NCBI GenBank assembly: GCA_001303705.1
Contig: LJUI01000038.1
Span: 1-18,530, forward strand
Reading direction: 5' to 3'
DNA: 18,530 bases
DNA from: a candidate division TA06 bacterium SM23_40
Lineage (GTDB): Bacteria > LJUI01 > SM1-40
The notes under the pieces are model-generated. The model was not told where the DNA came from. It made no database searches and worked only from the letters and a program-made list of their open reading frames with translations. The translations under genes were made by a program, and so were the position numbers. How positions within the stretch are numbered: position 1 is the first letter of the stretch; the number at the start of each line of letters is the position of its first letter. Positions 7,205-12,705 of this stretch are shown here, in pieces.

Positions 7205-7291
7205 CCGGATGACACGCAGGGAGTGCGGTCAGCCCGGGACACTGAAGTAACCGTTCTCATGAATGCGAAGACGTGGGCGAAGGGATCGGCC

Positions 7292-10198
7292 ATGGGGCAC
7301 AGCCGGAGACGCCGGGAGGCAGAAAGGGATAGTTTGAAGGCATACCGTATCGAAGTAGCGATGAGCCCCGACCTGCGGGACGCTGCGGGTGAGGCGCTGA
7401 AAGATGATATCCTCGATCTGGGCATCGAGAGCGTCCGTTCGGTACGCACCGCTCAGGTATACCGGCTTGAAGGCGATCTCTCCCGCGCTGACGTAGAACG
7501 TATCGCGTCCGATCTGCTTGCCGACGGCGTGAGCCAGCGCTATTCCATCGGGGGATCGGCGTTCGCCGAGGGGGGAGAGCAATTCCATGCTGTCGAGGTT
7601 GCCTACAATCCCGGGGTGATGGACCCGGTCGCCATTAGTGTGCTCAAGGCGATCGCAGATCTGGGCATCTCTGGAGTCGATCGAGCGAGCACGGCACAGA
7701 GGTATTGCATCGAGGGCGCGCTCAGCGAAGAAGCGCTGGCCACGATCACCAACAGGCTCCTTGTCAACCGGGTGATACAGCATCTCGCAACCGACGTCGA
7801 GCGTACAAGCCTGCCTTCTGCCACATACCGCCTCGAGATCCGGCGCATTCCGATCACGGATGCGAGCCCGGAGGAACTTGAGGAGCTTTCCGACTCCGGC
7901 CAACTCTTTCTCGACCGGCGAGAGATGGCGGCCATCCAGGACTACTTCCGCGGACTCGGGCGGGAGCCCACGGACGTCGAACTGGAGACACTCGCACAGA
8001 CCTGGAGTGAACATTGCGTCCACAAGACGATGAGGGGACGCGTCGACTACGGGGGGCACCTCATCGACGGTCTGCTCCAGTCGACGATCGTGCGTGCGAC
8101 CAAGGAGCTGGCCAAAGACTGGTGCATCTCCGTCTTCGAGGACAACGCCGGCATCATCGCCTTCGATGATGAGTACAACATCTGTTTCAAGGTCGAGACC
8201 CACAACCATCCGTCTGCCCTTGAGCCGTACGGAGGAGCGGGTACTGGAATCGGGGGCGTGCTGCGGGATCCTATGGGGACGGGCCTGGGAGCTAAGCCGA
8301 TCCTCAGTACTGATGTCTTCTGCTTTGCGCCGCCCGATACTCCCTACGACGCCCTGCCCGATGGGGTGCTCCATCCCAAGCGGATCATGAAGGGCGTGGT
8401 GGCCGGGGTCCGGGACTATGGAAACCGAATGGGCGTCCCCACGGTCAATGGTGCCGTTCTGTTCGACGAGGGTTACCTCAGTAATCCGGTCATCTATTGC
8501 GGGAATGTCGGGCTGATCCCACGAAACAGGTGTGAGAAACGGGTGAGCCCTGGTGACATGATCGTCCTCGTGGGGGGACGAACCGGCCGCGACGGGATAC
8601 ACGGGGCCACATTCTCGTCAGGAGAGTTGACGCCGGAGTCGGAGGTCGTCTCCGCCGGGGCTGTCCAGATCGGGAATCCCATCGTAGAGAAGAAGCTGCT
8701 CGATGCCCTTCTCGAGGCGAGAGAGAAGGAGCTGTACCGGTGCATTACTGATTGCGGCGGGGGCGGTCTCTCCTCCGCCGTAGGGGAGATGGGGCAGGAT
8801 GTCGGCGTTCTCGTCGATCTGGAAAAGGTGCCGCTCAAGTATGAGGGTCTCCGGTACGACGAGATATGGATATCGGAGGCGCAGGAGCGGATGATCCTCG
8901 CGGTCCCTCCCGACAAAGTAGAGGAGTGCTTGCAAGCGTTCGCGGACGAAGATGTCGAGGCGACCGTCATCGGAACGTTCACGGGAGATGGGCAGCTCCG
9001 TCTGCACTACGACGGCACTCCCGTCGGAGATCTCTCCATGGAGTTCTTACACCGTGGCTATCCTCGCAGCGAGAAGGCCGCCGAGTGGACACCCCCCACG
9101 TTCGGCGAGCCCGAGTTCGGAGATCCTGGCGAACTGGGCGATTGGCTTCTCTCCCTTCTCGGATCATGGAACATTGCAAGCAAGGAATGGGTGGTACGCC
9201 AGTACGATCACGAGGTCCAGGGCGGGAGCGTGCTCAAGCCGCTGGTAGGAGCACTGTGCGATGGTCCCGGGGATGCCGCGGTCTGGCGGCCGCGTCTCGA
9301 CTCGTACAGGGGGATAGCTGTGGCCAACGGGATCAACGCCCAGTACGGGAAGATAGATCCGTACTGGATGGCGGCATCGGTGATCGACGAGGCGCTGAGA
9401 CAGATCGTGGCGGTGGGAGCGAGTCTGGACCATGTTGCGCTCCTCGACAACTTCAGCTGGGGCGATCCCGACGATCCGCAGCAGCTCGCGGGGCTGGTTC
9501 GAGCCTGTCAGGGATGCTATGACATCGCCAAGGTGTTCGGCACCCCGTTCATCTCCGGAAAGGACAGTCTCAACAACTGCTATCTTGTCGATGGGAACCT
9601 CGTCTCGATTCCTCCGACGCTTCTCGTCTCCGCCCTGGCAGTGGTCGATGACGTGCGGGCGTGCATATCGATGGATTTGAAGGAGCCCGGCGATTACCTC
9701 TATATAGTGGGTCTGACCTACGAGGAGCTCGGCGGATCGCAGTACTATTGCCGGCGAGGGCTGATCGGCAATCGGGTCCCCCGTGTCGATGCCCATGCCT
9801 CGCGGCGTGCGATGAGTGCACTCTCCAGGGCGTGCCGGTCCGGGCTGGTCCGCTCTTGTCATGACTGCTCCGAAGGGGGGCTGGGAGTGGCCGCGGCGGA
9901 GATGGCGTTTGCCGGGAACCGCGGGCTGGAGATCGATCTGGCGCGCGTCTCGACGGGAGAGCAGATATCCCGGAACGACTACCTCCTCTTCTCCGAGTCG
10001 AATTCCCGGTTCCTCGTCGAGGTCCATCCCGACCGTGCAGAGGAGTTCGAGGCCGTGCTCGGGGATGTCCGACATGCACGTATCGGCGTCGTCTGCGAGG
10101 AGGGTCGGTTCGTCGCACGGGGACTGGGCGGAGAGAATGTAATGGATCTGGAGATCGCGGCGATGCGCGAGGCGTGGCAGGCCCCGCTCAGATGGTGA
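7292..10198 (+). CDS. purL: Phosphoribosylformylglycinamidine synthase PurL with two fused N-terminal PurS domains
   Basis: About 968 aa from ATG 7292 (AAGGG 7 nt upstream). ATG 7259 and TTG 7334 (AAAGGG 5 nt upstream) are alternatives; the TTG would start almost exactly at the first domain. Residues about 18-88 (YRIEVAMSPDLRDAAGEAL...) and about 98-170 (HAVEVAYNPGVMDPVAISVL...) are two successive PurS-like units. The catalytic PurL part follows: SEHCVHK at 239-245, the substrate/ATP loop ETHNHP at 302-307 followed by GGAGTGIGG, and DCSEGGLGVA at 858-867. The enzyme converts FGAR, ATP and glutamine-derived ammonia to FGAM, step four of purine synthesis. The glutaminase partner is the separate purQ downstream. 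The window has no stand-alone purS, which fits the fusion. This resembles the large E. coli-type PurL, whose N-terminal domain mimics a PurS dimer, but here the glutaminase is not fused. Confidence 0.95.
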   Translation: MGHSRRRREAERDSLKAYRIEVAMSPDLRDAAGEALKDDILDLGIESVRSVRTAQVYRLEGDLSRADVERIASDLLADGVSQRYSIGGSAFAEGGEQFHAVEVAYNPGVMDPVAISVLKAIADLGISGVDRASTAQRYCIEGALSEEALATITNRLLVNRVIQHLATDVERTSLPSATYRLEIRRIPITDASPEELEELSDSGQLFLDRREMAAIQDYFRGLGREPTDVELETLAQTWSEHCVHKTMRGRVDYGGHLIDGLLQSTIVRATKELAKDWCISVFEDNAGIIAFDDEYNICFKVETHNHPSALEPYGGAGTGIGGVLRDPMGTGLGAKPILSTDVFCFAPPDTPYDALPDGVLHPKRIMKGVVAGVRDYGNRMGVPTVNGAVLFDEGYLSNPVIYCGNVGLIPRNRCEKRVSPGDMIVLVGGRTGRDGIHGATFSSGELTPESEVVSAGAVQIGNPIVEKKLLDALLEAREKELYRCITDCGGGGLSSAVGEMGQDVGVLVDLEKVPLKYEGLRYDEIWISEAQERMILAVPPDKVEECLQAFADEDVEATVIGTFTGDGQLRLHYDGTPVGDLSMEFLHRGYPRSEKAAEWTPPTFGEPEFGDPGELGDWLLSLLGSWNIASKEWVVRQYDHEVQGGSVLKPLVGALCDGPGDAAVWRPRLDSYRGIAVANGINAQYGKIDPYWMAASVIDEALRQIVAVGASLDHVALLDNFSWGDPDDPQQLAGLVRACQGCYDIAKVFGTPFISGKDSLNNCYLVDGNLVSIPPTLLVSALAVVDDVRACISMDLKEPGDYLYIVGLTYEELGGSQYYCRRGLIGNRVPRVDAHASRRAMSALSRACRSGLVRSCHDCSEGGLGVAAAEMAFAGNRGLEIDLARVSTGEQISRNDYLLFSESNSRFLVEVHPDRAEEFEAVLGDVRHARIGVVCEEGRFVARGLGGENVMDLEIAAMREAWQAPLRW

Positions 10199-10300
10199 TC
10201 ACGGCCGATTGGTGATCATCGGCCGTTCGGTCCCCGTTGACCAGCTGATGACATCGGCCGGTCGATAGACGTGTGCCTGCTGGTAGTTGTCGGCCATCCG
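10193..10300 (+). repeat. Degenerate CGGCCG-containing repeats and a hairpin after purL
   Basis: Two adjacent near-identical units (TGGTGATCACGGCCGAT at 10193 and TGGTGATCATCGGCCG at 10210) begin in the last codons of purL. They create an inverted repeat, CGGCCGAT (10202-10209) and ATCGGCCG (10218-10225), with an 8-nt loop. ATCGGCCG recurs at 10253 and TCGGCCA at 10290, so the motif recurs at about 18, 35 and 36 nt. No T-run follows the hairpin, so it is not a standard terminator; it might block exonucleases at the purL mRNA end. Confidence 0.4.
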
Positions 10301-10377
10301 ATCATCGTTACCGACGCAACCTCCCTCGCGCTGGCGCGGCCGTTGTGGGGACTGAGGGTGGAGAGGGGAACGAGCTC

Positions 10378-10815
10378 ATGCAGTTTGTCGATGTGCTGTA
10401 CACGATCCTGATCGTCGTAGGAAGCGACGTCAGGGCGGAGGAACGGGATCGCCCGCTCGCCTATCGTCTCAAAGGAGAGATCGATGCGCGCGGGGACCCT
10501 GAGCAGTTGAAGAAGGCAATCGTCTTGGGAGATCAGTGGTATCTCCAGAACAAGGTCTATCAGGCGTGTCCCACCATCGCCATCGGCGGCGCAGGGGTGA
10601 ACCATCTCACGGCTATGTGGATGACGAGCCTGCCAGCCACGATATCGAAAGGCAAGACAGCCTTTATACAACTCGATGAGGACTTTTCCGATACCCGGGT
10701 GGCGATCTGGGGCACCAACCACGTGGCGACCGGTGCCGCTGTCGACGTCTTCGTCACCCAGCACCTCAATAGATATCTGGATGTCGTCTGGAAGAGGCAG
10801 AAGAAGGGTTCGTAG
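10378..10815 (+). CDS. Hypothetical protein, 145 aa
   Basis: I do not recognise this family. ATG 10378 is preceded by GAGAGGGG about 9 nt upstream. The same frame opens at GTG 10273, but that extension is Arg/Gly-rich and looks non-coding. The protein looks soluble with alternating beta and alpha segments: TILIVVGSD, a charged helix ERDRPLAYRLKGEID, then AIVLGDQWYL, PTIAIGGAGVN, TAFIQLDEDF and VAIWGTNHVATGAAVDVFV. The GGAGVN and TGAAVDVF pieces faintly recall repeats of archaeal S-layer or cell-wall-binding domains (hydrophobic strand, GGP-x-VN, final helix), but this is weak. There is no signal peptide or membrane helix of the usual kind, although the N-terminus is hydrophobic. It lies between purL and the ECF sigma gene on the same strand. 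Confidence 0.6.
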   Translation: MQFVDVLYTILIVVGSDVRAEERDRPLAYRLKGEIDARGDPEQLKKAIVLGDQWYLQNKVYQACPTIAIGGAGVNHLTAMWMTSLPATISKGKTAFIQLDEDFSDTRVAIWGTNHVATGAAVDVFVTQHLNRYLDVVWKRQKKGS

Positions 10816-10881: not shown

Positions 10882-10909
10882 GGAACTTTCATCAGGCCCG
10901 GTTGTCAAA
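10882..10909 (+). promoter_or_regulatory. ECF (sigma-E-type) promoter upstream of the sigma factor gene
   Basis: GGAACTT at 10882-10888, a 16-nt spacer and TCAAA at 10905-10909 match the known E. coli sigma-E -35 and -10 consensus at every base, with the usual spacing. Transcription would start near 10915, only about 15 nt before the proposed start codon and just upstream of the GAGGAGGAGGG ribosome binding site. The position directly before an ECF sigma gene is the classic autoregulatory arrangement. Confidence 0.72.
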
Positions 10910-10929: not shown

Positions 10930-11541
10930 ATCTCGACAGAGGAGAGGGCGGATGCCGCAGCGCTCGACGACCACGAGCTCGTGCGGAACTGTCAACGTGG
11001 CGACAGGGCTGCGTTTGACGAGTTGATGCTTCGCCACCAGGCCCGAATATTCAATGCCGCCTGTCGCCTCTTGGGAGACATCGACGAGGCCGAAGAGGTG
11101 GCTCAGGATACCTTCGTCAGGGCCTACCGTGGGATCGGCGGATTTCGCTTTCAGTCGAGTTTCTTTACCTGGCTCTACCGCATCCTCCTCAATCTCGCCG
11201 CCAATCGACGAAAGGCGCGGGCCAGACAGCGGAGAATCCGTGTCGACTCGCTCGACCGCATGGCTGAGGGTGATGACGGATGGGCACCTCGGGAGCCGGC
11301 CGACCGAACCTGCGACCCGGAGCAAGAGCTCGAGCGTCGCGAGCTGGCTCAACAGATCGAGCAATGTCTTGCCGAGCTGTCTCATGACCACGCTGCCGTC
11401 GTGGTCATGAGAGACGTTCAGGGCATGTCATATGAGGAGATCGCCGGCGTCCTCGAGTGTTCTGTGGGAACGGTGAAGTCGCGCCTCCATAGGGCCCGTG
11501 CTGAGTTGAGGAAGTTGATGAGCCGGTATGGAGAGTGGTGA
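10930..11541 (+). CDS. ECF RNA polymerase sigma factor (RpoE-like)
   Basis: 203 aa if started at ATC 10930, or 186 aa from GTG 10981. The region before 10981 reads in frame as ALDDHEL joined to VRNCQRGDRAAFDEL, which is the normal start of sigma region 2 in this family, so the GTG start would cut a conserved piece. Region 2 follows (FDELMLRHQARIFNAACRLL, DEAEEVAQDTFVRAYRG, FFTWLYRILLNLAANRRK). After a charged linker comes region 4 (VVVMRDVQGMSYEEIAGVL, SVGTVKSRLHRARAEL), the helix-turn-helix that binds the -35 element. The gene has its own sigma-E-type promoter and is followed by an anti-sigma gene. It should direct RNA polymerase to envelope-stress promoters. An ATG at 10952 is in a different frame and is followed by a stop after about 24 codons. 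Confidence 0.92.
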   Translation: MSTEERADAAALDDHELVRNCQRGDRAAFDELMLRHQARIFNAACRLLGDIDEAEEVAQDTFVRAYRGIGGFRFQSSFFTWLYRILLNLAANRRKARARQRRIRVDSLDRMAEGDDGWAPREPADRTCDPEQELERRELAQQIEQCLAELSHDHAAVVVMRDVQGMSYEEIAGVLECSVGTVKSRLHRARAELRKLMSRYGEW

Positions 11542-11622: not shown

Positions 11623-12705
11623 ATGGACGGTTCGGATCACGACCGCATGCGCAGACTGCTTCCGGCCTATGTGGAGGGCGATCTCGCGGAGGAGGAGCGG
11701 GAGCAAGTCTCTCAGCACCTCAGCGAGTGTTCTGAGTGCGCTGCCGAGGCGCGGTCGATGGAGCGGGTGCGTGATGCGCTCCGGGGGCTTGAGCAGGTTG
11801 ACGTACCGCTCGGTTTCGGGGACGCGGTCTGGCGCAAAATCGAGCGGGAGCCGGTCTGGCGCACATGGCTTCGTCGCGTCTTCATCTTCGCCCCGCAGCG
11901 GATGCCGATGAAGGGGCTGGCGACGGCGAGCGCATTGGTGCTCATCGTCGCCCTGACCTACCTCGTGTCCACCCGTCTTCAGGAGCGCGGCGTGCCGAGC
12001 GATGCGGTCCTCATGTCTGATGCCGGGCCTGTCGAGGAGGAGCCGGCTCGGGGGGTTCTCACAGACAAGAAGGAGAGCGTGGGCACGGAATCTCTTGCCG
12101 AGGGTGAGGTCGACATCCAGTCGCTCGAGGACGAGGAAGCGTCGCTCGCCTACCACGAGAGGGCGACTCCCGCGTCCGGTGCTCGTGAGGAGGAGATGAG
12201 GCCGGACCTTTCGACTCTCGACCGCGCGGCCGAACGGGGAGAGGGAGTTCGCGCCCCTGAGCCGGCGACCTCTGAGAAGATGGTGCTCGCCGAACGCGAT
12301 GAGGCTGAGGCCGTGGAAGACTTCATGGGTGCGGCGTCTCAGCAAGCTGTCGATGAGCTCCGACCAGGTGCCGTACTCGAGGCGCCAGGCGCTATCCTCA
12401 TGCCGAGCGGCGGGGCGCGGATAGAACTGAACTGGCTCCCCGCCGGGGAGCGGCAGGTCGTCTTCCTGCGCGTTCACCTCGATGTCGACGGGAGCGTGCT
12501 CGATGTGGAGATGGAGCGTCCTGGCGATGTTGAGGTGGACTCCACGGTCCTCGACATCGTTCACAGCTGGAAGTTCGCTCCGATCGTCGTCGACGGGAGA
12601 GCACAGAAGGTCTGGGTGACGGTGCCGGTTGCGGTGTCCGAGCCGATGGAGGAGAGCTCGGAGGAGACGATACCATCCGAGGGCGGGGGCTCCTCTACGT
12701 TCTAG
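11623..12705 (+). CDS. ZAS-type anti-sigma factor with C-terminal TonB-like domain
   Basis: 360 aa. The N-terminus has the zinc-binding anti-sigma motif H-x3-C-x2-C (His32, Cys36, Cys39) in a helical region that would bind the sigma factor in the cytoplasm. One membrane helix spans about 98-119 (GLATASALVLIVALTYLV). A long acidic, Glu/Ala-rich linker (about 125-245) would lie in the periplasm. The C-terminus (about 261-342) matches the TonB C-terminal fold: VHLDVDGSVLDVEMERPGD, LDIVHSWKFAPIVVDGRAQKVWVTVPV. Standard ZAS proteins lack this domain, so it may sense the envelope or contact an outer-membrane partner (inference). GAGGAT lies 9 nt before the ATG. It is presumably co-transcribed with the sigma gene, and its stop is 16 nt before purQ. 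Confidence 0.88.
   Translation: MDGSDHDRMRRLLPAYVEGDLAEEEREQVSQHLSECSECAAEARSMERVRDALRGLEQVDVPLGFGDAVWRKIEREPVWRTWLRRVFIFAPQRMPMKGLATASALVLIVALTYLVSTRLQERGVPSDAVLMSDAGPVEEEPARGVLTDKKESVGTESLAEGEVDIQSLEDEEASLAYHERATPASGAREEEMRPDLSTLDRAAERGEGVRAPEPATSEKMVLAERDEAEAVEDFMGAASQQAVDELRPGAVLEAPGAILMPSGGARIELNWLPAGERQVVFLRVHLDVDGSVLDVEMERPGDVEVDSTVLDIVHSWKFAPIVVDGRAQKVWVTVPVAVSEPMEESSEETIPSEGGGSSTF

Follow-up and report, generated by a model that had tools for sequence, protein, structure and literature searches.

We describe here a zinc anti-sigma (ZAS) factor that, judging from its sequence, bears a TonB_C-type domain at the end where a sensor would be expected; ZAS factors with varied C-terminal domains, taken as sensors, are already known, and it is the TonB_C-type end that appears to be rare. 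The protein is encoded in a window of 18,530 nucleotides (the whole stretch of DNA that was analysed) from a candidate division TA06 bacterium, and the predicted arrangement is an ECF sigma factor gene followed by the ZAS gene, with a promoter before both, and a ZAS product with one membrane helix and a TonB_C-type end on an acidic tether. Membrane anti-sigma factors differ chiefly at their periplasmic ends, and only a minority of them can be assigned a signal. To find a TonB_C-type domain there is an unusual and testable hint to the thing sensed, pointing to strands of outer-membrane proteins or to TonB boxes. The best supported of the readings considered is that the pair may act as an envelope-stress switch of the sigma-E type, in which the TonB_C-type domain would bind strands as the periplasmic sensor and would not transduce energy; we consider the case for and against it to be about evenly balanced.

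The gene pair and its promoter

The sigma and anti-sigma genes lie on the same strand, 81 bases apart, and are flanked as a pair by purL and purQ (open reading frames of the window, with Pfam). The first gene (10930-11541, + strand) encodes an RpoE-like ECF sigma factor, with Sigma70_r2 at E 3e-13 and Sigma70_r4_2 at E 1e-18. Its top NCBIfam match is RpoE (TIGR02939) at 150 bits, and because this score lies below the family cut-off of 236, we would say that the factor seems to work like RpoE/ECF02 rather than that it is a member of the family. Upstream of it, at 10882-10909 (+), stands a sigma-E-type promoter, GGAACTT-N15-GTCAAA, the single match in the window where 0.01 was expected, and near-perfect with respect to the published sigma-E consensus (-35 GGAACTTTT, -10 GTCAAA; PMC1804206). 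The same motif was present upstream of 12 of 64 ECF genes, the window's among them, against 0.28 expected; the 64 are the window's gene and the homologues nearest to it, a number of which nearly duplicate one another. On the strength of this promoter and of its recurrence, autoregulation of the ECF sigma factor from 10882-10909 is likely, and the combination of an RpoE-like ECF gene with a near-perfect sigma-E promoter probably makes the pair an autoregulated sigma-E-type envelope-stress switch.

Across the genome, three sites of the strict motif were counted against four in the reversed control, the two besides the window's own lying inside same-strand open reading frames, and 17 sites of the relaxed motif against 12, which is no clear excess; the regulon may therefore be tiny. 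Only two other sigma-E-like sites are well placed, on contigs C16 and C132, and these may be chance matches. The former (L230:400-478, GGAACTT...GTCTAA) stands 49 bases before the gene for a 1076-residue membrane protein, DUF4175-like by eye. The latter (L231:1859-1980, GGAACCC...GTCTAA) stands 93 bases before the gene for an alpha-2-macroglobulin-like protein of 1626 residues, which contains a CFEQ motif of the thioester type and is a possible target in envelope defence. In Firmicutes-type relatives (L080:6543-6570, L083:1424-1451, L089:4199-4226 and similar ones), GGAACTTTT...GTCNAA is found between the ECF and anti-sigma genes, not before the ECF gene.

Several further observations concern the surroundings of the pair. 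The ECF frame is open upstream to an ATC at 10930-10932, behind a strong ribosome-binding site (GGAGGAGGGAAG), and the listed start, a GTG at 10981, has no ribosome-binding site; the sigma gene may begin at the non-AUG codon ATC at 10930, or the assembly may be in error at that base. A 180-residue open reading frame (10273-10815) that separates purL from the sigma gene matched no Pfam family at E up to 1, and PurL itself (7223-10198) apparently has two PurS-like repeats at its N-terminus, as judged by eye from the translation. Phage origin was ruled out, there being no PHROG match.

The anti-sigma protein and its TonB_C-type end

The second gene (11623-12705, +) runs in one unbroken frame of 360 codons from the ATG at 11623 to a stop ending at 12705, and encodes a membrane anti-sigma factor of 360 aa with a C-terminal TonB_C-type domain (Pfam, NCBIfam, and profile scores against shuffles). 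Two separate genes for the anti-sigma and TonB_C parts were ruled out by this single open frame. The limits of the gene and the zinc motif H32, C36, C39 are exactly those of the original prediction. The motif belongs to a zinc anti-sigma domain (residues 10-40; 11650-11742, +), which matches zf-HC2 above the curated cut-off (E 9.6e-10) and whose best PDB relative by sequence is RsiW (5wuq, E 0.0017). Both marks of ZAS class I are present, an HxxxCxxC motif in the anti-sigma domain and an adjoining ECF sigma gene, and the factor would accordingly be expected to bind zinc as well as its sigma factor.

The one membrane helix that had been foretold was recovered as a single hydrophobic helix at residues 97-117 (11911-11973, +; LATASALVLIVALTYLVS), with a Kyte-Doolittle maximum of 2.03 at 98-116; it contains no histidine and is preceded by the ~95-residue cytoplasmic ZAS domain. 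Since basic residues (R and K) stand before the helix, the C-terminal two thirds of the protein should, by hydropathy, be periplasmic. This part opens with an acidic linker (residues 118-255; 11974-12387, +; 25% D/E, net charge -21, 6.5% P), whose acidity had been rightly foreseen and whose length had been put too low, at about 120 residues in place of the 138 given by these limits. It closes with an acidic tail (residues 339-360; 12637-12702, +; 27% D/E, no K or R). A Pfam search of the protein at E up to 1 gave no match to the FecR domain (PF04773).

Between linker and tail, at about residues 273-338 (12439-12636, +), lies the TonB_C-type domain without helix alpha-I, delimited with TIGR01352, our own profile and AlphaFold2/Foldseek. 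With residues 275-338 as the matching part, TIGR01352 passes its NCBIfam cut-off (32.8 bits vs 27.1), and Pfam TonB_C (PF03544) just missed its cut-off of 24.6 bits in the protein scan, at 24.2, and cleared it in the genome scan, at 27.1. A profile of 33 TonB_C domains, from which the window's own was excluded, scored 30.7 bits, against a maximum of 5.7 among 1000 shuffles of residues 241-345. The predicted core of strand, strand, helix and strand is well kept, with a score 25 bits above any shuffle, and this shuffle test ruled out a chance match; the TonB_C-like domain announced at the outset is genuine.

As TonB_C alignments yielded no related loci, the structure of residues 245-348 was predicted with AlphaFold2 from the single sequence. 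The model is poor overall (mean pLDDT 59.6) and of low confidence, and within it the order is strand-strand-helix-strand, with core block means of 64-87. Its first 16 Foldseek matches in the PDB (350,542 chains) were all C-terminal domains of the TonB family, at weak E values of 0.19 to 1.0, and VIA-align gave a middling Z of at most 5.1. STN and PupR-type folds were not among the fold-search matches of the model, an absence that amounts to no exclusion. We base the TonB_C assignment on the sequence, with which the structure model agrees.

In an alignment with 11 TonB_C sequences, the YPxxARxxGxEG segment, which is helix alpha-I, is absent from the window's domain, and it is because of this absence that the profile match begins only at profile position 11-17. 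The last strand, VWVTVPVAV, the one that pairs with a TonB box, is retained. Matches that start only at profile position 9-17 also occur elsewhere, mostly in TolA-like or TonB-like proteins, some of which have a different segment in the place of alpha-I, and on these alignments the truncated form does not appear to be unique to this protein. Energy-transducing TonB has a short N-terminal membrane anchor, the histidine of which couples it to ExbB-ExbD. Of the two features expected of such a transducer, alpha-I with YPxxA and the short histidine-bearing anchor, the anti-sigma protein has neither.

Occurrence of the pairing

The search for the same domain pair in other genomes, to which the original prediction had pointed, came back empty. 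TonB_C was found in none of the 113 other distinct anti-sigma-domain reading frames in the loci fetched, 68 of which extend at least 100 residues beyond the membrane helix, and an anti-sigma domain in none of 60 other TonB_C reading frames sampled. The pairing looks rare rather than unique, "rare" being the lower-grade statement and the one that befits a small sample biased to ECF neighbours. Scans of genomes and viral contigs returned no orthologue of the anti-sigma protein, with no phylum mate among the genomes searched, and a sigma-factor scan of the genome contigs returned only ECF relatives at 36-45% identity, whose neighbours are without TonB_C. A joint ZAS and TonB_C profile made of chimeric rows was run over 386 genomes and found both parts only in the window, among at most seven best candidates per genome, a weak result in that the two parts were listed separately.

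Beside the closest ECF homologues, several other ZAS anti-sigma factors have long linkers that end in domains of other kinds (DUF4349, PrcB_C, some unassigned), in agreement with a published survey that describes C-terminal domains varying from one anti-sigma group to the next and interprets them as sensors (PMC7406223). Among 5.4 million open-access papers we found no report of a ZAS and TonB_C fusion; subscription journals and InterPro architectures lay outside this search, and a few such sequences there would be no surprise. TonB_C was also seen at the end of proteins of another kind, namely a peptide-binding-like protein of the same genome (contig C147, L002:1-1734; SBP_bac_5 type by eye, Pfam 69 bits) and, in another genome (L236), a 770-residue protein with a solute-binding-like start, so that fusions of solute-binding and TonB_C parts occur in at least two lineages.

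Readings of the domain and comparison with known systems

Under the envelope-stress reading, the cytoplasmic zinc domain would keep hold of the sigma factor in the resting cell, and the TonB_C-type domain would bind, via its exposed edge strand, either a partner in the envelope or an outer-membrane protein that has not been assembled. Altered binding would leave the acidic tether opened to, or shielded from, a site-1 protease; intramembrane cleavage would then free the sigma factor, which would go on to transcribe the operon that encodes it, together with other genes for the envelope. Ligand, proteolysis and regulon are steps that we infer. The ZAS domain with its sigma factor, the promoter, a TonB_C-type domain lacking alpha-I, the other presumed sensors on relatives and the existence of a separate, ordinary TonB all speak for this reading, and the few promoter sites genome-wide and the quality of the model (pLDDT as above, Foldseek E 0.19 or worse) speak against it. 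A periplasmic sensor that uses only the fold had been the second choice of the original prediction, and it fits better than the first, direct sensing of an outer-membrane transporter.

In that first choice, the TonB_C-type domain would span the periplasm and pair with a transporter's TonB box, the substrate-dependent exposure of which would switch the sigma factor on, without a FecR relay or an STN domain. The partners that this calls for do co-occur: six TonB-dependent transporter barrels are encoded by the genome, two of the six with clear TonB-box-like EELVV segments after the signal peptide in their translations. A TonB_C fold is predicted, with its box-pairing strand kept, and the 138-residue linker, if extended, would reach the outer membrane. 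By eye, no STN domain was seen before the plugs in the translations of the six. The sole FecR-domain protein found in the genome has the look of an exported protein, with no anti-sigma domain seen in it, and no FecR-type relay was found in the assembly, which is ~90% complete; the lineage seems to have transporters yet no such relay, so that this part of the prediction held, and the direct sensing attached to it fared less well. Against it stands the loss of alpha-I, which in TonB-transporter complexes faces the plug, where its Arg166 may act, and the region of which, around TonB residue 160, crosslinks to the TonB box (PMC6118199, PMC11658791). The window has no transporter gene, and none of the six transporter genes has a sigma-E-like site. 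Canonical sigma factors of cell-surface signalling (CSS) usually control their own transporter gene, and here no transporter gene was found on the contigs of the 17 sigma-E-like sites genome-wide, which argues against transporter control by this sigma factor. Direct docking is weakened by the loss of alpha-I together with the lack of a genetic link, and we regard direct transporter sensing as unlikely.

It is also conceivable that the domain is a degenerate remnant of a TonB gene fused by chance, which would only stabilise or space the periplasmic end, sensing being done elsewhere, for example by the tether or the zinc site. Such an origin would suit the lost alpha-I, the occurrence of the fusion in this genome alone against 113 other sampled anti-sigma factors, and the presence of TonB_C on the peptide-binding-like protein of the same genome, from which the module can be seen to move; the core is nevertheless well kept, 25 bits above any shuffle, and we find a mere remnant unlikely as well. 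Also unlikely in our view is a one-protein line from the outer membrane, in which the anti-sigma factor itself would dock on a transporter's TonB box and stand in for the FecR relay of cell-surface signalling as well as for its STN signalling domain. Direct docking, if true, would link the outer membrane to transcription by a shorter route than we found in any cell-surface signalling system so far described. An interaction of the TonB_C-type domain with TonB or ExbD is the least credible, for although TonB C-terminal domains can dimerise via their last strand (PMC6118199) and the genome encodes an ordinary TonB, alpha-I included, on contig C129 as well as two ExbD proteins on C94, neither tonB nor exbD is linked to the locus and no evidence for a specific interface was found.

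The envelope-stress reading invites comparison with RpoE-RseA of Escherichia coli (ECF02), which has, like the pair described here, a sigma-E-type ECF factor and a GGAACTT...GTCAAA promoter before its own operon; RseA, too, is membrane-bound, with a cytoplasmic N-terminus and a periplasmic C-terminus. The zinc anti-sigma domain is shared with RsiW, the anti-sigma factor of sigma-W in Bacillus subtilis (PDB 5wuq). Neither RseA nor RsiW is known to have a TonB_C domain. Release in the sigma-E system is by proteolysis through DegS and RseP. RseA depends on periplasmic RseB and on DegS (PMC8103513), whereas no RseB gene adjoins the pair here.

With TonB proteins, such as that on contig C129, the anti-sigma protein has in common the TonB_C core, a long acidic tether and a single membrane helix; those proteins differ in keeping alpha-I with its YP motif and in having no cytoplasmic anti-sigma domain, and the tether of the C129 protein is 19% proline as against 6.5%. 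Anti-sigma factors of FecR-type cell-surface signalling (FoxR, PupR) likewise combine an anti-sigma domain and a single membrane helix with a small C-terminal periplasmic domain, which strand-pairs with an outer-membrane protein (PMC11637429). In FoxR and PupR, however, a beta-solenoid is followed by an STN-like last subdomain, which makes contact with the transducer's STN signalling domain, whereas the protein described here has a TonB_C-like end and no FecR domain that we could find. A TolA/TonB-like C-terminal domain within an ECF pathway is known from VreA of the PUMA3 system of Pseudomonas aeruginosa, the modelled alpha-1 of which is shorter than that of TolA (PMC2729926). VreA resembles the present protein in having such a domain within ECF signalling, and differs from it in bearing an STN domain and in being a periplasmic protein of its own, distinct from the anti-sigma factor VreR.
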